Virus record (IMG/VR): IMGVR_UViG_3300029319_000466
Coordinates: 1-23,325 of that record
Length of the DNA stretch: 23,325 nt
Origin: a virus
Direction: 5' to 3' (one strand)
Under the pieces are notes generated by a model. That model had not been told where the DNA came from. It saw nothing but the letters and a program-made list of their open reading frames with translations, and ran no database searches. Of the stretch, positions 17,143 through 22,572 are shown piece by piece; positions within the stretch are counted from its first letter, which is position 1; each line of letters begins with the position of its first letter. A program made the translations under genes and the position numbers.

Positions 17143-17458
17143 ACTCGTTAGGCTTTCTAAGGAAAACGATTTGAATCGTGAACTTAGGAAGCAAAAGCGT
17201 GAGCGGGGAGAACTCTCCCTGCTATTCGTATCCCCTTGGGATAAGTATTGTAATAACTTGCTGGAGGAGTTGGAGGCAGCAAACAGAAACGCACCCGACA
17301 ATGCGAAGACTCTTTACATTGTAGATAGCTACAATATGCCCCACTCTTTTGTCATCTTCAAGAGTTCCATGCTACCGCAGTATGTGAACATCAAGAAGAG
17401 CAAGGTCTACTCGGAGGATTACCTCCCCTTTGTTTACAGAAACCTAGGCTTAGATTAA
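17132..17458 (+). CDS. Thioredoxin-fold-like protein lacking the CxxC pair
   Basis: This 108-aa protein follows the thioredoxin pattern. A strand LSLLFVSPWDKYC (28-40) corresponds to the 'strand-W-C-G-P-C' active site, but the first Cys is replaced by Asp (W36-D37-K38-Y39-C40). After a helix come a strand LYIVDS (61-66) and YNMPHSFVIFK (67-77), where Pro70 matches the cis-Pro before the next strand. With only one Cys it cannot carry out standard dithiol exchange, so a structural or binding role is more likely. It is coupled to the upstream 112-aa gene (11-nt overlap), converges on the gp55-like gene (9-nt overlap), and lies near a family A polymerase. The fold call is by eye. Confidence 0.5.
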   Translation: MKYKLVRLSKENDLNRELRKQKRERGELSLLFVSPWDKYCNNLLEELEAANRNAPDNAKTLYIVDSYNMPHSFVIFKSSMLPQYVNIKKSKVYSEDYLPFVYRNLGLD

Positions 17459-17791
17459 ATCTTTTTTAATTTCAGTGTAAGTTTCTATCTTTTCTAAATA
17501 CTTTTTGTTTTTGGTATACAATAACTTAAGATTATTTAGAATGATAGTGGTAAAGTAATTGAATGCGTTACCTCTTTGCGGGTCAAAGTTCTTGAGTGTT
17601 TTCAAAATTAACAGAAAACACTCTTGCTTTGCATCGTCTTCGTCTACTTTAAATGAGAACCCTGTGATGATGTTAGATATCAAGATGTCGAACATGCCGA
17701 AAAGTTCATCTTCATATGTACTCGGATCAGCTTTGTACAGTTTGATCATCTCTTCAAACTTTTCATTGTCTATGTAATGCTTTTCGGTCAT
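17450..17791 (-). CDS. gp55: Short gp55-like late-transcription sigma factor
   Basis: This 113-aa protein carries the sigma region-2-like core of T4 gp55, the factor that directs host RNA polymerase to late promoters. The stretch DDAKQECFLLILKTLKNFDP (52-71), followed by NAFNYFTTIILNNLKLLYTK (75-94), aligns by pattern with gp55 'W-K-Q-E-M...I-K-x-L-x-N-F-D' and 'N-x-x-A-Y-I-T-x...F'. The protein ends 20 residues later. T4 gp55 is 185 aa and ends with a hydrophobic sliding-clamp-binding motif that I do not see here. The ATG is preceded by TATAAT-N5 and no Shine-Dalgarno. It is a lone - strand gene whose 3' end overlaps the thioredoxin-like gene by 9 nt. A generic sigma-70 region 2 protein is the alternative. 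Confidence 0.75.
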   Translation of the reverse strand: MTEKHYIDNEKFEEMIKLYKADPSTYEDELFGMFDILISNIITGFSFKVDEDDAKQECFLLILKTLKNFDPQRGNAFNYFTTIILNNLKLLYTKNKKYLEKIETYTEIKKDLI

Positions 17792-17803
17792 AACATATTA
17801 TAG
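17792..17803. promoter_or_regulatory. 12-bp divergent mini-promoter region (gp55-like / polymerase)
   Basis: Only 12 bp lie between the two start codons. On the - strand TATAAT (17802-17797) is 5 nt from the gp55-like ATG. On the + strand TATTAT (17796-17801) is 2 nt from the ATG at 17804. Neither gene has a Shine-Dalgarno. Both transcripts would have to be leaderless or start within the neighbouring gene. Inference. Confidence 0.4.
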
Positions 17804-18820
17804 ATGACTAATTTACACTCATTGTATGCTGCTGATGAAGTTCAATCACATTGCGCTGATTGTTCTATTCTGCTGAAAAAGAAGCCTACTTATTGTGTTG
17901 AGGATTATAAGGATTTAGCGCCTTCTGAGGTACTTTTCCTGTCTGACTCAATCAAGTATAGGTTCGGCAGTTCGTATGCATTTTCTAAGCAAGAAATTTC
18001 TTTACTAGAAGAATTTTACCCAGGAGATTCCTTTCAGGTAGCCGCATCCGTCAAGTGCCCTTCTGTAAAAGAGGCAGACATGACGCCTGCAAACATGGAA
18101 GCGTGTCGTAACTACCTGCAAGCTACCGTAGACAAAGTAAAGCCTTTGCTTGTTTTTGTTTGTGGTAATTTGGCTATGAAGATGCTCATTAAGAAGAGCG
18201 GAATCACTAATAAGAGAGGTAAATCCTATGATTATACAACTGATAATGGGCACGATTGTGTCGTTGTTCCTATCTTCCATCCTTATTCTGTGGTTAAAGA
18301 ACCTCGGCATAGGGTACTCTTCGAAACGGATATCCGAAATGCATATGAGAAATATGTACTTGGCAAAACGCACGAAGGGAAGCTCGAATATAAAGTCCTC
18401 ACAGACATCGAAGAGTTCCAAGCCCTAGCAGACCAGCTTCAGGAATCTAAAGAGACTCTAGCGATTGATATTGAGACCACAGGACTAAACTTCCTAACTG
18501 ATAAGATACAGACAATAGCGATCTCATCACGCCAGAACAACTGGGTAATCCCTCTGGATCACAAGGATAGCCCTTTTAGGAAGGGACAACCTGAGTATGC
18601 TCAAGCGTGGAAATATCTTAGGAGAATACTAGAGAACCCCCTCAACAAGAAGGTATTCCACAATGCCAAGTTTGATCTTAAGTTTCTAATAAATTACGGA
18701 GTTTACACAAAGAATGTGTGGGATACTAAGATCATGCACCACCTTCTAGACGAGAACCTACCTAAGAGTTTGATGGACTTGGTTAAACTCTATTTCCCGA
18801 CCGAGCTTGAAAGCCTCTAG
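17804..18820 (+). CDS. polA: DNA polymerase I fragment 1: family-4-like uracil-DNA glycosylase plus N-terminal half of 3'-5' exonuclease
   Basis: In this 338-aa protein, residues 1-185 resemble family 4 UDG. The four [4Fe-4S] cysteines are in place as C17-x2-C20, C85 (VKCP) and C101 (EACRNYL). LVFVCGNLAMKML follows, then FHPYS with His159 in the catalytic-loop position. The usual GExPG at the first motif is replaced by LSDSI (46-50), so activity is uncertain. Residues 195-338 begin a DEDD proofreading exonuclease: ExoI DIETTG (D222, E224) and ExoII HNAKFDLKFL (N287, D291). The frame stops after LYFPTELESL, before ExoIII. UDG-exo-PolA is the layout of SPO1-type polymerases. The last 38 nt overlap the end of the inserted - strand lipoprotein gene. 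Confidence 0.88.
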   Translation: MTNLHSLYAADEVQSHCADCSILLKKKPTYCVEDYKDLAPSEVLFLSDSIKYRFGSSYAFSKQEISLLEEFYPGDSFQVAASVKCPSVKEADMTPANMEACRNYLQATVDKVKPLLVFVCGNLAMKMLIKKSGITNKRGKSYDYTTDNGHDCVVVPIFHPYSVVKEPRHRVLFETDIRNAYEKYVLGKTHEGKLEYKVLTDIEEFQALADQLQESKETLAIDIETTGLNFLTDKIQTIAISSRQNNWVIPLDHKDSPFRKGQPEYAQAWKYLRRILENPLNKKVFHNAKFDLKFLINYGVYTKNVWDTKIMHHLLDENLPKSLMDLVKLYFPTELESL

Positions 18821-19289
18821 CGATTTTCTCTAGAGCCTCGATTCGAGCTTCGTTTTTCTTCATAACTTGATCTTGTTCATCGTCCCGTGCATCAATATCT
18901 GCTTGGGAGACGGTGTTATGAATAGATCCAAACTTCTTAAACCAAGTTCGACCTTTCTTACTAAAGAGGGGGAGGAATACAAAGAGGATTAAATACCAAT
19001 AACCTATTGTTTTAATTAGACCGCCTGTTTCATGTATTGTGGATGCTGTGGTTCCTTGGACTGGCCCCGCTCCTGCTCCTGCCACTTGAGCAACGACTGC
19101 TGCTGGGCTTTGTGACGGCATAATCAGTTCAGTCACCATTACCCCTCCTGCTGCCCCTGCTGCTACAGCGGCTGGCTCTGGAACAAACGCTGCAACCGCA
19201 CCACCTCCGACTGCACCACCTATAGCATGTTTGATCGTGCTGCAACTGCTTGCAAAAACTAAAAGTAAAAGGACTGCTAATTTATTCAT
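18783..19289 (-). CDS. Membrane lipoprotein inserted in the split polymerase locus; spanin-like candidate
   Basis: This 168-aa protein starts at ATG 19289. A longer frame to 19352 would run through the next gene's start and would spoil the signal peptide. Residues 1-15 are a lipoprotein signal (MNKLAVLLLLVFASSC) with Cys16 as the lipidated residue. Residues 22-85 are Gly/Ala/Val-rich. TIGYWYLILFVFLPLF (about 94-109) is a membrane helix followed by basic KKGRTWFKKF, implying a cytoplasmic C-terminus. The rest is a charged, coiled-coil-like tail. An outer-membrane lipid anchor plus one inner-membrane helix resembles unimolecular spanins, which fuse membranes at lysis, though here the helix is not terminal. 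The final codons use the complement of the polymerase fragment's 3' end. I do not recognise a named family. Confidence 0.72.
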   Translation of the reverse strand: MNKLAVLLLLVFASSCSTIKHAIGGAVGGGAVAAFVPEPAAVAAGAAGGVMVTELIMPSQSPAAVVAQVAGAGAGPVQGTTASTIHETGGLIKTIGYWYLILFVFLPLFSKKGRTWFKKFGSIHNTVSQADIDARDDEQDQVMKKNEARIEALEKIARGFQARSGNRV

Positions 19290-19312
19290 TTTGGAATGTA
19301 TAATATATAGAC
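19290..19312. promoter_or_regulatory. Divergent mini-promoter region (lipoprotein / polymerase fragment 2)
   Basis: 23 bp separate the divergent ATGs. On the + strand TATAAT (19299-19304) is 8 nt before the ATG at 19313, with no Shine-Dalgarno. On the - strand a TATTAT element (19304-19299) is about 10 nt before the lipoprotein ATG. An in-frame TAA at 19301 shows fragment 2 cannot start further upstream. If active, this site would give fragment 2 its own transcript. Inference. Confidence 0.42.
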
Positions 19313-19792
19313 ATGCTAACGATTGAGAACCCCAAAAATTTTGATTGGTCATCCATGTCGCTCTCTGATTGTTGTGAGGGCAACGCCATGGATTCCTACT
19401 TTACTCTAAAGCTATTTGATTTGGTTAGCGAAAAGCTGGATGACCTAGGACTACTTCCTTTTGTGGAGAAAGTTTTGCCTAGTGCGCTAGAAACTTTTTC
19501 TGAGATGGAGCATGAGGGTCTTGTTGTCAGCACTGATAAGCTGAGCGTGCTTCAGAAAGAACTAAAGGAGTTGGTCTTAGATCAGGAGGACTCCTTATAT
19601 GTTTTCTCGCAAGTTCAAAAGACTGATAACCTATCCTCAAATAATGACCTCATAGATATATTTTATCTAAGGGAGGGAGGGTTTGAGTTTTATCCTCCTG
19701 ATAAAACAGCAAAAGGCGCACCTTCTGTTTCAGCGCCTACACTAAAGATTTTATTAGAGCAGATTAACGAAGAATTGGAGAAGCGATCATGA
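19313..19792 (+). CDS. polA: DNA polymerase I fragment 2: C-terminal half of exonuclease and start of thumb
   Basis: This 159-aa protein starts with MLTIENPKNFDWSSMSL and continues the exonuclease fold. CCEGNAMDSYFTLKLFDL (20-37) is the ExoIII region, with Asp27 aligned to the metal-binding Asp; the Tyr usual four residues earlier is not present. FSEMEHEGLVVS (62-73) is the classic PolA 'ME-x-x-G-i-x-V' helix leading to the polymerase domain. LSSNNDL then KGAPSVSAPTLKILLEQI (134-151) match the thumb-entry segment. The piece is in the same frame as fragment 1 but separated from its stop by 492 bp carrying the lipoprotein gene. It ends at a 4-nt ATGA overlap with fragment 3. Confidence 0.85.
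   Translation: MLTIENPKNFDWSSMSLSDCCEGNAMDSYFTLKLFDLVSEKLDDLGLLPFVEKVLPSALETFSEMEHEGLVVSTDKLSVLQKELKELVLDQEDSLYVFSQVQKTDNLSSNNDLIDIFYLREGGFEFYPPDKTAKGAPSVSAPTLKILLEQINEELEKRS
19777..19791 (+). promoter_or_regulatory. Ribosome-binding site and ATGA junction for polymerase fragment 3
   Basis: GGAG at 19777-19780 lies 8 nt before the ATG at 19789, and that ATG overlaps the TGA of fragment 2. The spacing is ideal for reinitiation and decides the start of fragment 3. It argues for a true gene boundary over a simple one-base error, although the GGAG also encodes part of fragment 2. Confidence 0.6.
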
Positions 19793-20910
19793 GTCCTAAG
19801 TGGCAGCATAGAGACGAGGGTAAAAAGATCAGTAAGAATGTTATCAAATCCAAGACCACCGATGAATTACGCAACGCTTCTAGGTTTATCTCTGGACTTC
19901 TAGATCTAAGAAAGGCTGAGAAGCTACAGAAGACTTATATTCATGGAACTCAGAAGGCTTTGGAATACAATGATAGCAGTAAACTGTATGTTGATTACCG
20001 ATTAGACGGAACCGCTACTGGAAGACTGTCCTGCGCTGCTTATAACGCAGCCAAACCTATGGGCGTCTCTTTCCACACACTTCCAAGAGAGACAAAGACA
20101 AACATTAGAAGTATGTTTGTTGCTCCAAAAGGAAAAGCGTTTATCACTGTAGACTATGCCGCCATGGAACTAAGAGTTCTAGCGCATATTGCTAAGGAGC
20201 AGAGTATGCAACACGCCTTCAACTCTGGGGCTGACCTACATAGTTACACGGCACGACTACTATTCAATAAAGAGAATATCACAAAGGAAGAAAGGCAGAT
20301 CGCAAAGACAGTCTCCTTCTTGATCGTTTATGGTGGAGGAGCTTTTAATCTGTCTGAGACCATGGCGATTCCTCTTGATAGGGCGGAGAAAATTATTAAA
20401 AATTACCAGAGGGTTTACCCTGGTATCTTCAGATACATGGAGCATGTGAATGAGTTTATCAAAGATAATGGGTTTGCTTATACTATATTCGGTAGGAGGC
20501 GCAATCTACACGATGTTCGCAGCAAAGATCGCTCGGTCGTTAATAGGGCATTAAGGCAGGGCCTGAATTTTACTATTCAAAGTTCTGCCTCAGACATCCT
20601 TTTGTGTGGGCTTTTGGGCGTCACAAAAAGATTCAAATCTAACGACTTGGATGCTCAAGTAGTGGCAACAGTTCACGACAGTCTAGAGATTATATCTTCC
20701 GAAAAAGATCTAGAAAAAACAATAGAGATCGTCTATGATGAACTAGTTAACTACCCTTACCTCAAAAAGCTTTTTGGTATTAACTTTGATGTTCCTTTTG
20801 GGGTAGATTTAGAGGTAGGTCGTTCCTTTGGTGATGGACAGGATGTGGAGTTCACAGACGGCAAGCCCACCAATGTACCAGAAATATTAGAGTATTTGCA
20901 TGAAAATTAG
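19789..20910 (+). CDS. polA: DNA polymerase I fragment 3: family A polymerase domain
   Basis: This 373-aa protein begins in the thumb (LLDLRKAEKLQKTYIHG, 37-53) and contains the complete palm and fingers. YVDYRLDGTATGRLSC (67-82) precedes motif A, DYAAMELR (122-129), with catalytic Asp122. Motif B is R169-x3-K173-x3-F177-x3-Y181-G182, equivalent to E. coli R754/K758/F762/Y766. Motif C is VHDS (295-298), with Asp297 catalytic and Ser where most family members have Glu. Phe at the 762 position has been associated with virulent phages. The fragment lacks any exonuclease of its own and would depend on fragments 1 and 2 for proofreading. It overlaps ThyX by 11 nt, forming an operon with nucleotide synthesis and recombination genes. 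Confidence 0.93.
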   Translation: MSPKWQHRDEGKKISKNVIKSKTTDELRNASRFISGLLDLRKAEKLQKTYIHGTQKALEYNDSSKLYVDYRLDGTATGRLSCAAYNAAKPMGVSFHTLPRETKTNIRSMFVAPKGKAFITVDYAAMELRVLAHIAKEQSMQHAFNSGADLHSYTARLLFNKENITKEERQIAKTVSFLIVYGGGAFNLSETMAIPLDRAEKIIKNYQRVYPGIFRYMEHVNEFIKDNGFAYTIFGRRRNLHDVRSKDRSVVNRALRQGLNFTIQSSASDILLCGLLGVTKRFKSNDLDAQVVATVHDSLEIISSEKDLEKTIEIVYDELVNYPYLKKLFGINFDVPFGVDLEVGRSFGDGQDVEFTDGKPTNVPEILEYLHEN

Positions 20911-21574
20911 GTGTCTAAACCAAGGCTCAGTTGAATTGATGAGCCATACCCAAGATGGGGATCTGTTAGTCGTGAATGCTGCACGATGTTCCTTTGATAA
21001 GCAGCATGAGGTGTTAGATCAGGAGGGGGATGTAAGGCTTATTAATTATCTAGCCAAACATAAGCACCTACTTCCCTTCAGGCACCCCTCCGCTACGATC
21101 AGGATCGAGGCTCCTATTTATGTGTTTAGACAGTTAGGCAAACACCAAGTAGGATTCTCATGGAGTGAGGTTTCAAGGCGCTACATTAAAAAACAACCCC
21201 ACTTCCATTATCCCATGCCAGAGGAGTGGAGGCTGTCTTCGGACAATATTAAGCAGGGTAGCTTAGAGGATCCCCTTCCTGAGCAAGATGCTTTGGATGT
21301 CGATAAGCAAGTAGACATGTTCTATATGTATGCAGATGATCTGTATACTGATCTTCTAGCTAAGGGTGTATGTCCTGAACAAGCCCGAATGGTGTTACCT
21401 CAAGCTATGATGACAACAACGGTTACTACAGGAACGCTGCTTGGCTGGCATCACCTATACACTTTGAGGACTGAAGAACATACTCAGAGGGAGACTCAAG
21501 TGTATGCTAGAGCCATAGGAGAGATTATGGCTGAGTTGTTCCCTGTGAGTTGGAAAGCATTATGCGAACATTAG
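20900..21574 (+). CDS. thyX: Flavin-dependent thymidylate synthase ThyX
   Basis: ThyX converts dUMP to dTMP using FAD, NAD(P)H and methylenetetrahydrofolate, supplying thymidine for phage replication. The 224-aa protein has the family's usual length. LPFRHPSATIRIEAPIYVF (59-77) leads into the signature region RQLGKHQVGFSWSEVSRRY (78-96). The canonical RHR triplet is KHQ here, a variant I recall from phage ThyX proteins, while the downstream Ser and SRRY are retained. LPQAMMTTTVTTG (about 168-180) and GWHHLYTLR with EEHTQRETQVYA (about 181-207) match the C-terminal substrate-binding helix pair. It begins 11 nt inside the polymerase gene and its end overlaps gp47 by 13 nt. Confidence 0.92.
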   Translation: MKIRCLNQGSVELMSHTQDGDLLVVNAARCSFDKQHEVLDQEGDVRLINYLAKHKHLLPFRHPSATIRIEAPIYVFRQLGKHQVGFSWSEVSRRYIKKQPHFHYPMPEEWRLSSDNIKQGSLEDPLPEQDALDVDKQVDMFYMYADDLYTDLLAKGVCPEQARMVLPQAMMTTTVTTGTLLGWHHLYTLRTEEHTQRETQVYARAIGEIMAELFPVSWKALCEH

Positions 21575-22572
21575 TATTAGGAGATATTCACATCTCCAAT
21601 AAGGATGCTGCATTAAGGGCAGCACAGGAGAAGTGTATCAAAAAGATATACGATGAGGAGCAGCCAGATCAAGTTATTCAATTAGGAGACTTCTTGGACT
21701 TCAGGAAGCCCTCTCCTGAGGCCCTCCTTACCGCTAAGAATATTATCGACCATTGGAGGCGTTCCTCTGATGTATATATTTTAAGAGGTAATCACTGTGC
21801 CAGCACTAAGGCTGATGATGGAGTCACAGCGATGAGCCTGTTTGATAGTCCTGCGTATGGCACTCAACATGAGGTGAAAATCATAACCCATACCTGGCTT
21901 GACCCAAAAACGAAGCGAGCCTTTATCGCACATTATGAAAATGAAGAACAGATTATACAATATCTTGCAGATTGCCCTAGAGATTACACTGTTTTTGGTC
22001 ACTTTGGGTATTTCGGTTGTCTTAATTCCGTTGGGGATCATGATTTTGATATCAACATTAATAGCTTCAACAATAACACTATTCTGGGTCATATTCACAG
22101 ACAAACTGAGAGAACATTTGTCGTGGGTGAAGAAGAGAAATCAGTCTTAATTCTTGGCACTCCCTACACTACAAACTTTGGTGAGTCAGGTAAAGATAAC
22201 TACTATGCGATCATAGAAGATGGTAAGACTACGCTTTATCAGGTAGATCACGGTCCTCGCCACATGATGATAAAGAACTCTGATCTATTAGAGAATGCAG
22301 AAAAGATAAATGACAAGAACTACCATACTTATCTGAGAGTTATTTTGGAAGCAGGAGAAACTCAAGTTAATTTAGAGGGCATTAAGCCTCACTCCATAGA
22401 TATTAAATATTCTCCTGCATTTGATGAAGAGGAAGTGTCAGAGTACAGCCCTAGCAGGGACCTTTTCCGCCTGAACGATGTTGTGATAGAGGACTACATA
22501 AGTTCAGCCAACTCTTCTATTGACAAAGACCGTCTTTTAGAAGGGTACAAATTATTAAAGTATGAAGATTAA
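21562..22572 (+). CDS. gp47: Recombination nuclease subunit, gp47/SbcD/Mre11-like
   Basis: This 336-aa calcineurin-like phosphoesterase pairs with the gp46 ATPase to process DNA ends for recombination-dependent replication. Metal-binding motifs in order are GDIH (7-10), GDFLD (42-46), GNH (76-78), HFGYFG (147-152) and GHIH (176-179). T4 gp47 is 339 aa. I chose ATG 21562 (MRTLVLGDIH) over the upstream TTG 21550: GGA 8-9 nt before it gives a ribosome-binding site, and the first beta strand then begins at residue 2 as in homologues. It overlaps ThyX by 13 nt and gp46 by 11 nt, indicating coupled expression. Confidence 0.94.
   Translation: MRTLVLGDIHISNKDAALRAAQEKCIKKIYDEEQPDQVIQLGDFLDFRKPSPEALLTAKNIIDHWRRSSDVYILRGNHCASTKADDGVTAMSLFDSPAYGTQHEVKIITHTWLDPKTKRAFIAHYENEEQIIQYLADCPRDYTVFGHFGYFGCLNSVGDHDFDININSFNNNTILGHIHRQTERTFVVGEEEKSVLILGTPYTTNFGESGKDNYYAIIEDGKTTLYQVDHGPRHMMIKNSDLLENAEKINDKNYHTYLRVILEAGETQVNLEGIKPHSIDIKYSPAFDEEEVSEYSPSRDLFRLNDVVIEDYISSANSSIDKDRLLEGYKLLKYED

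Follow-up and report, generated by a model that had tools for sequence, protein, structure and literature searches.

Organization of the polymerase locus

The window, a stretch of 23,325 nucleotides that forms part of a 25.2-kb IMG/VR record (IMGVR_UViG_3300029319_000466), carries a family A DNA polymerase divided among three open reading frames. The three frames, of 338, 159, and 373 amino acids, lie where the initial annotation had placed them and jointly match one UDG-exo-PolA chain. The locus comprises the following features.

17450 to 17791, minus strand: late sigma factor, weakly T4 gp55-like, divergent from ORF1, in conserved synteny
17804 to 18820, plus strand: ORF1, 338 aa, a UDG-like domain and then the N-terminal half of the 3'-5' exonuclease (ExoI/ExoII)
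18821 to 19312, no strand: J1 insert, the 492 bp that follow the ORF1 stop and precede the ORF2 ATG; 48 of 91 relatives lack it
18783 to 19289, minus strand: insert gene, 168 aa from an internal ATG, lipoprotein-like (lipobox VFASSC)
19301 to 19312, minus strand: promoter-like element, TATAATATATAG on the plus strand and CTATATATTATA on the minus strand, directly before the ORF2 ATG and pointing into the insert gene
19313 to 19792, plus strand: ORF2, 159 aa, the C-terminal exonuclease segment (ExoIII) and first part of the thumb
19789 to 19792, plus strand: J2, ATGA overlap of the ORF2 stop and the ORF3 start
19789 to 20910, plus strand: ORF3, 373 aa, last thumb helix, palm, and fingers
20900 to 21574, plus strand: neighboring ThyX thymidylate synthase
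21550 to 22572, plus strand: neighboring calcineurin-type phosphoesterase (SbcD/gp47-like)

The frames had been described as consecutive; ORF1 and ORF2, however, are not adjacent, and the 492 bp between them hold a minus-strand ORF. By its structural genes, which encode a head maturation protease, a major head protein, a neck protein, and the tail sheath and tail tube, the window belongs to a T4-like myovirus. No close cultured relative was found, the whole locus and ORF2 both being without a match in INPHARED at the limits used. A contig of 130,604 bp filed under the single-amplified genome Prochlorococcus sp. AG-409-P03 (L160/L011) is a 73% relative and provides the only hint of a host for the three-piece phages. 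The cyanophage marker psbA was not found in 11 records.

Domains and catalytic residues of the three pieces

ORF1 matches the Pfam families DNA_pol_A_exo1 (2e-21) and UDG (PF03167; 6e-7), and its AlphaFold2 model (pLDDT, 79) has family 4 UDGs and PolA exonucleases as fold matches, so that the UDG domain is supported both by profile and by fold (4zbx in both). Four cysteines of this domain (residues 17, 20, 85, and 101) are invariant, and their placement is presumably that of the 4Fe-4S ligands of family 4 UDGs. Motif A is absent, residues 44 to 49 reading LFLSDS where GEAPGE is expected, and ORF1 thus lacks the GExPG motif and catalytic residues that define catalytic UDGs of families 4 and 5. 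L370, a member of the two-piece clade described below, has a UDG-like domain without the cysteines as well. Motif A is intact in most of the one-chain relatives aligned (MW202455, L338/L348). The UDG-like domain of ORF1 may be a structural relic.

The exonuclease site is distributed over two genes. The carboxylates D222 and E224 of ExoI and D291 of ExoII lie in ORF1 and D27 of ExoIII lies in ORF2, and all four are without variation, with at least 80 sequences scored per site. This part of the initial annotation, which had described the exonuclease residues as kept, therefore stands; the site is nevertheless incomplete, because Gly23 replaces the DEDDy tyrosine (Y497 of Escherichia coli) in 80 of the 80 ORF2 sequences scored. 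The same glycine occurs in all split forms examined, within a GNAxD motif in both the two-piece (L411 to L426) and the three-piece forms; the tyrosine is retained in one-chain relatives. Its loss could mean that proofreading is weak or gone and that the carboxylates are retained for another reason.

ORF2 had no Pfam match as a single sequence. The profile of its family aligns to positions 160 to 292 of the Klenow chain, covering ExoIII and part of the thumb (E value, 8e-8). The view that a UDG-exo-PolA polymerase is present here in three intact parts, cut inside the exonuclease fold, is supported. The AlphaFold2 model of ORF2 alone is poor (pLDDT, 67; pTM, 0.33), and because of this a fold search with it gave no significant match. 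A poor model would be expected of a part that needs its partners, though it is not proof of that.

ORF3 matches DNA_pol_A (PF00476) at 9e-77. It retains motifs A (DYAAMELR), B (RQIAKTVSFLIVYG), and C (VHDS), as had been reported, and its catalytic residues D122, R169, K173, and D297 are invariant, as in a typical family A polymerase. Ten related records of 45 to 130 kb contain exactly one PolA each and gave no match to PolB or PolIII alpha; eight of the ten were searched for a PolA-type exonuclease, with one match each. Therefore, the three-piece PolA is probably the replicase of its phages, as judged from these ten records, none of which is known to be complete.

Relatives and sequence constraint

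Relatives were gathered by searching with each piece separately, which makes fused genes as findable as split ones. Single-sequence queries with ORF2 of L028, with MW202455, and with L145 added few loci, and a mixed profile of both kinds (A5) together with an L370 query yielded the outgroup and the two-piece clade. The three-ORF arrangement, which the initial annotation had proposed to look for in relatives, recurs in 91 distinct loci on contigs of varied origin. The dN/dS comparison that it had also proposed gave values mostly between 0.01 and 0.15 for each of the three ORFs where dS was not saturated, and all three are under strong purifying selection. Random stops and lost catalytic residues in relatives had been named as signs that would speak for decay: the catalytic residues are invariant, and broken frames are single cases, namely, a frameshift in ORF2 of L039 and one internal stop in ORF3 of L017, through either sequencing error or decay. 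The distances of ORF1 correlate best with those of ORF2 (r, 0.72), the value for the adjacent sigma gene being 0.53; this offers modest support for assembly of the pieces, and linkage could explain it.

Junctions and their inserts

ORF1 and ORF2 are fused in none of the 91 loci, and ORF2 and ORF3 are fused in none of the 88 loci in which J2 could be scored. At J1, 48 loci have a 1-bp overlap (TAATG in 47 and TGATG in one), and the remaining 43 have an insert of 151 to 2,403 bp that fills precisely the space from the ORF1 stop to the ORF2 ATG. The tree requires at least 11 changes of insert state along its supported branches. At J2 the overlap is 8 nt in 60 loci, with a GTG start, and 4 nt in 17.

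The insert genes are diverse. Minus-strand genes at J1 encode lipoprotein-like or small basic proteins; plus-strand genes include those of 62, 91, and 51 aa, a glycosyltransferase, and a 2OG-oxygenase. The insert gene of the window has no Pfam or PHROG family; its longest ORF spans 18783 to 19352, and at its 3' end it runs 38 nt into the end of ORF1. Both junctions of L324 are occupied, J1 by a 2OG-oxygenase gene and J2 by a further gene, and none of its three ORFs is broken; in L350 and related loci, J2 contains a dNMP-kinase-like gene. No endonuclease was found among the insert proteins scanned. Many of the minus-strand proteins are basic and contain an MNxYxxIxxLLxE-like segment, often at the start and sometimes repeated (examples drawn from L004, L006, L008, L025, L039, L049, L054, L059, L069, L076, L091, L118, and L131), a segment that we find reminiscent of the capsid-targeting sequences that the T4 head protease cleaves.

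A promoter-like motif, TAT[ACT]ATATAG or TATTATAG (CTATATNATA on the other strand), is shared by many loci and occurs in the window at 19301 to 19312 and 17790 to 17803. Of 202 matches, 158 adjoin a gene start, and most of these lie between divergently oriented genes, the ATG on the opposite strand being 4 to 5 nt distant; none of the matches of two scrambled controls (11 and 17) lay beside a gene start.

The loci with inserts at J1 or J2 amount to experiments done by nature, since the pieces there must be made separately. The opposite-strand insert between ORF1 and ORF2 argues best for separate translation of the two.

One-, two-, and three-piece clades

One-chain relatives of 744 to 891 aa share about 30% identity with the three-piece form (LysYB1, MW202455, L331 to L348); those obtained with the mixed profile measure 744 to 840 aa. 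One of them, L347, has a frame break near ExoIII, through sequencing error or decay. A sister clade of 17 contigs (L411 to L427) is split into two pieces, with ORF1 separate and ORF2-ORF3 as one chain of 504 to 525 aa. Both sides of J1 are visible in 15 of the 17, and the junction contains either 1 to 9 bp or one or two genes amounting to about 1.0 to 1.3 kb in all; these genes encode glutamine synthetase in most cases and, by eye, a dehydrogenase-like protein in others. The glutamine synthetase gene sits exactly in J1 of L370, L412, L415, L416, L418, and L419.

Rooted on LysYB1, a mixture-model tree recovers a single clade for each of the one-, two-, and three-piece forms, with bootstrap values of 99 to 100, and piece number changes twice in all. 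An earlier tree had L370 on a long branch; rebuilding with six more two-piece members and the mixture model gave the same order. From this order it follows that the J1 fission most likely came first and the J2 fission second, and the polymerase probably passed from one to two to three pieces with a single origin for each step. Extra residues around J2 in the three-piece forms speak against a refusion in the two-piece clade. The change from tyrosine to glycine at ExoIII coincides with the J1 fission.

A probable heterotrimeric replicase

With carboxylates spread over two chains and the thumb likewise over two, a heterotrimer bridged by ORF2 is the simplest reading. We put at roughly 0.8 the probability that this is a family A replicase brought into pieces by two ancient successive fissions, the products of which most likely form one heterotrimer. 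The first fission (J1) would have fallen in a variable loop before the ExoIII helix and the second (J2) between the last thumb helices. Overlapping genes would yield separate polypeptides by termination-reinitiation, and pieces with a gene between them would be translated independently. The products of ORF1, ORF2, and ORF3 would then assemble, with ORF2 as the bridge that would supply both the ExoIII aspartate missing from the active site in ORF1 and the half of the thumb that ORF3 lacks. The junctions would act as neutral slots in which unrelated genes settle, because continuity is no longer needed there. Assembly into subunits, which the initial annotation had suggested, remains the most plausible fate of the pieces; like separate translation at the protein level, residual proofreading, and the neutrality of the slots, it is what we infer from the genes themselves. 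The fuller reading, in which the heterotrimer is the only polymerase detected, the two fissions are ordered, the tyrosine-less exonuclease site is shared, and the junctions are long-lived docking slots for varied cargo (glutamine synthetase, glycosyltransferase, 2OG-oxygenase, dNMP-kinase-like, lipoprotein-like, and small basic proteins), has somewhat better than an even chance of being right.

The strongest competitor holds that ORF3 alone is the polymerase and that ORF1, with or without ORF2, is a separate nuclease or DNA-binding factor, with no heterotrimer formed. Exonuclease and polymerase activities on separate chains occur elsewhere, and the polymerase motifs are complete within ORF3; yet ORF3 is without the first part of the thumb, which ORF2 carries, D27, set apart from the other carboxylates, is invariant in ORF2, and the sister clade has ORF2 and ORF3 as one chain. 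We regard this explanation as unlikely. Considerably less probable still is the joining of the pieces into one chain by programmed frameshifting, RNA splicing, or a split intein. The TAATG and ATGA overlaps do resemble sites of frameshifts or couplings, but the J1 inserts reach 2.4 kb and many of them contain opposite-strand genes, so that frameshifting across them is impossible, and the frame beyond the ORF1 stop is closed. An intron or other RNA element in the J1 insert was considered and rejected: no Rfam intron came near the gathering score in the window region, and the 1-bp overlaps of 48 loci leave no room for one. Nor is there an intein half, since the end of ORF1 and the start of ORF2 align as exonuclease sequence. 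A decaying polymerase or an assembly artifact, for which the broken ORF2 of L039 and the stop in ORF3 of L017 might be cited, is hardly credible when about 90 distinct contigs share these three ORFs, with their catalytic residues unchanged and purifying selection acting on them.

Comparison with known systems

The single-chain UDG-exo-PolA (Lysinibacillus phage LysYB1, MW202455, L331 to L348) agrees in domain order along its entire length, at about 30% identity, but differs in being one chain and in having the ExoIII tyrosine. The locus shares with the SPO1-type enzyme a UDG domain recognizable by sequence and fold, and it does not share the single chain. The initial annotation had also invoked phage RM378, and that comparison is not supported as a homologous precedent: BLAST against the first 50 kb of RM378 matched only the tail sheath and none of ORF1 to ORF3. 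Judged by eye, the two RM378 products with a polymerase annotation resemble an exonuclease of the PolB type and a 5'-3' exonuclease.

Split replicases with an element between the parts are known from the T4-related Aeromonas phages 25 and 44RR, in which gp43 is divided into 43A and 43B. The parts of phage 25 copurify and have polymerase activity, and between the gp43 parts lie a seg homing endonuclease gene in phage 25 and untranslated sequence in 44RR (reviewed in PMC2988022). That enzyme is of family B and in two parts, whereas the one described here is of family A and in three. The ribonucleotide reductase of phage Aeh1 is likewise a split essential enzyme that works from separate chains with an insert at its junction (PMC2988022), differing in the enzyme and in that the insert is a homing endonuclease. 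As in the genes in pieces of T4-related phages, the parts in our loci are intact, under selection, and accompanied by junction inserts. The OM43 phages MEP401 and MEP402 carry PolA as two genes that flank a small ORF, an arrangement common to most of their group for which the authors suggested an intron (PMC10580990). They too are marine phages with a split family A polymerase, but in two parts, cut between the thumb and motif A with the exonuclease intact, and their similarity to the window ORFs is remote only. The group I introns that interrupt other phage polA genes have no counterpart here, as judged from the Rfam comparison of the window region and the 1-bp overlaps of 48 loci. Other fractured polymerases are joined by split inteins (Dassa et al. 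2009, named in PMC6892783; MIJ3 PolB), and there, as in the window, a polymerase gene is cut in two and another gene inserted; our locus differs in having no intein halves, as judged from the alignment of the end of ORF1 and the start of ORF2, and nothing to ligate the parts.

Split phage polymerases were thus already known, as scattered cases often tied to homing elements. A three-gene PolA, or a split inside the PolA exonuclease domain, was found nowhere in the open-access literature searched, and none of the systems above is a PolA in three genes with a cut within the exonuclease fold. Here every stage of the path can be seen, as clades with one, two, and three chains whose cuts lie within a catalytic domain and within the thumb: in a large group of uncultured marine phages, a normally single-chain enzyme seems to have been turned stepwise into a multipart machine, and the three-piece split has apparently been retained over long divergence in marine T4-like phages. 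This makes three questions testable: how an enzyme of one chain turns into an obligate complex, whether proofreading can operate across two chains and with no tyrosine, and what leads phage genomes to take up new genes at such junctions. For the engineering of split polymerases, the boundaries between the pieces look like natural places to cut.
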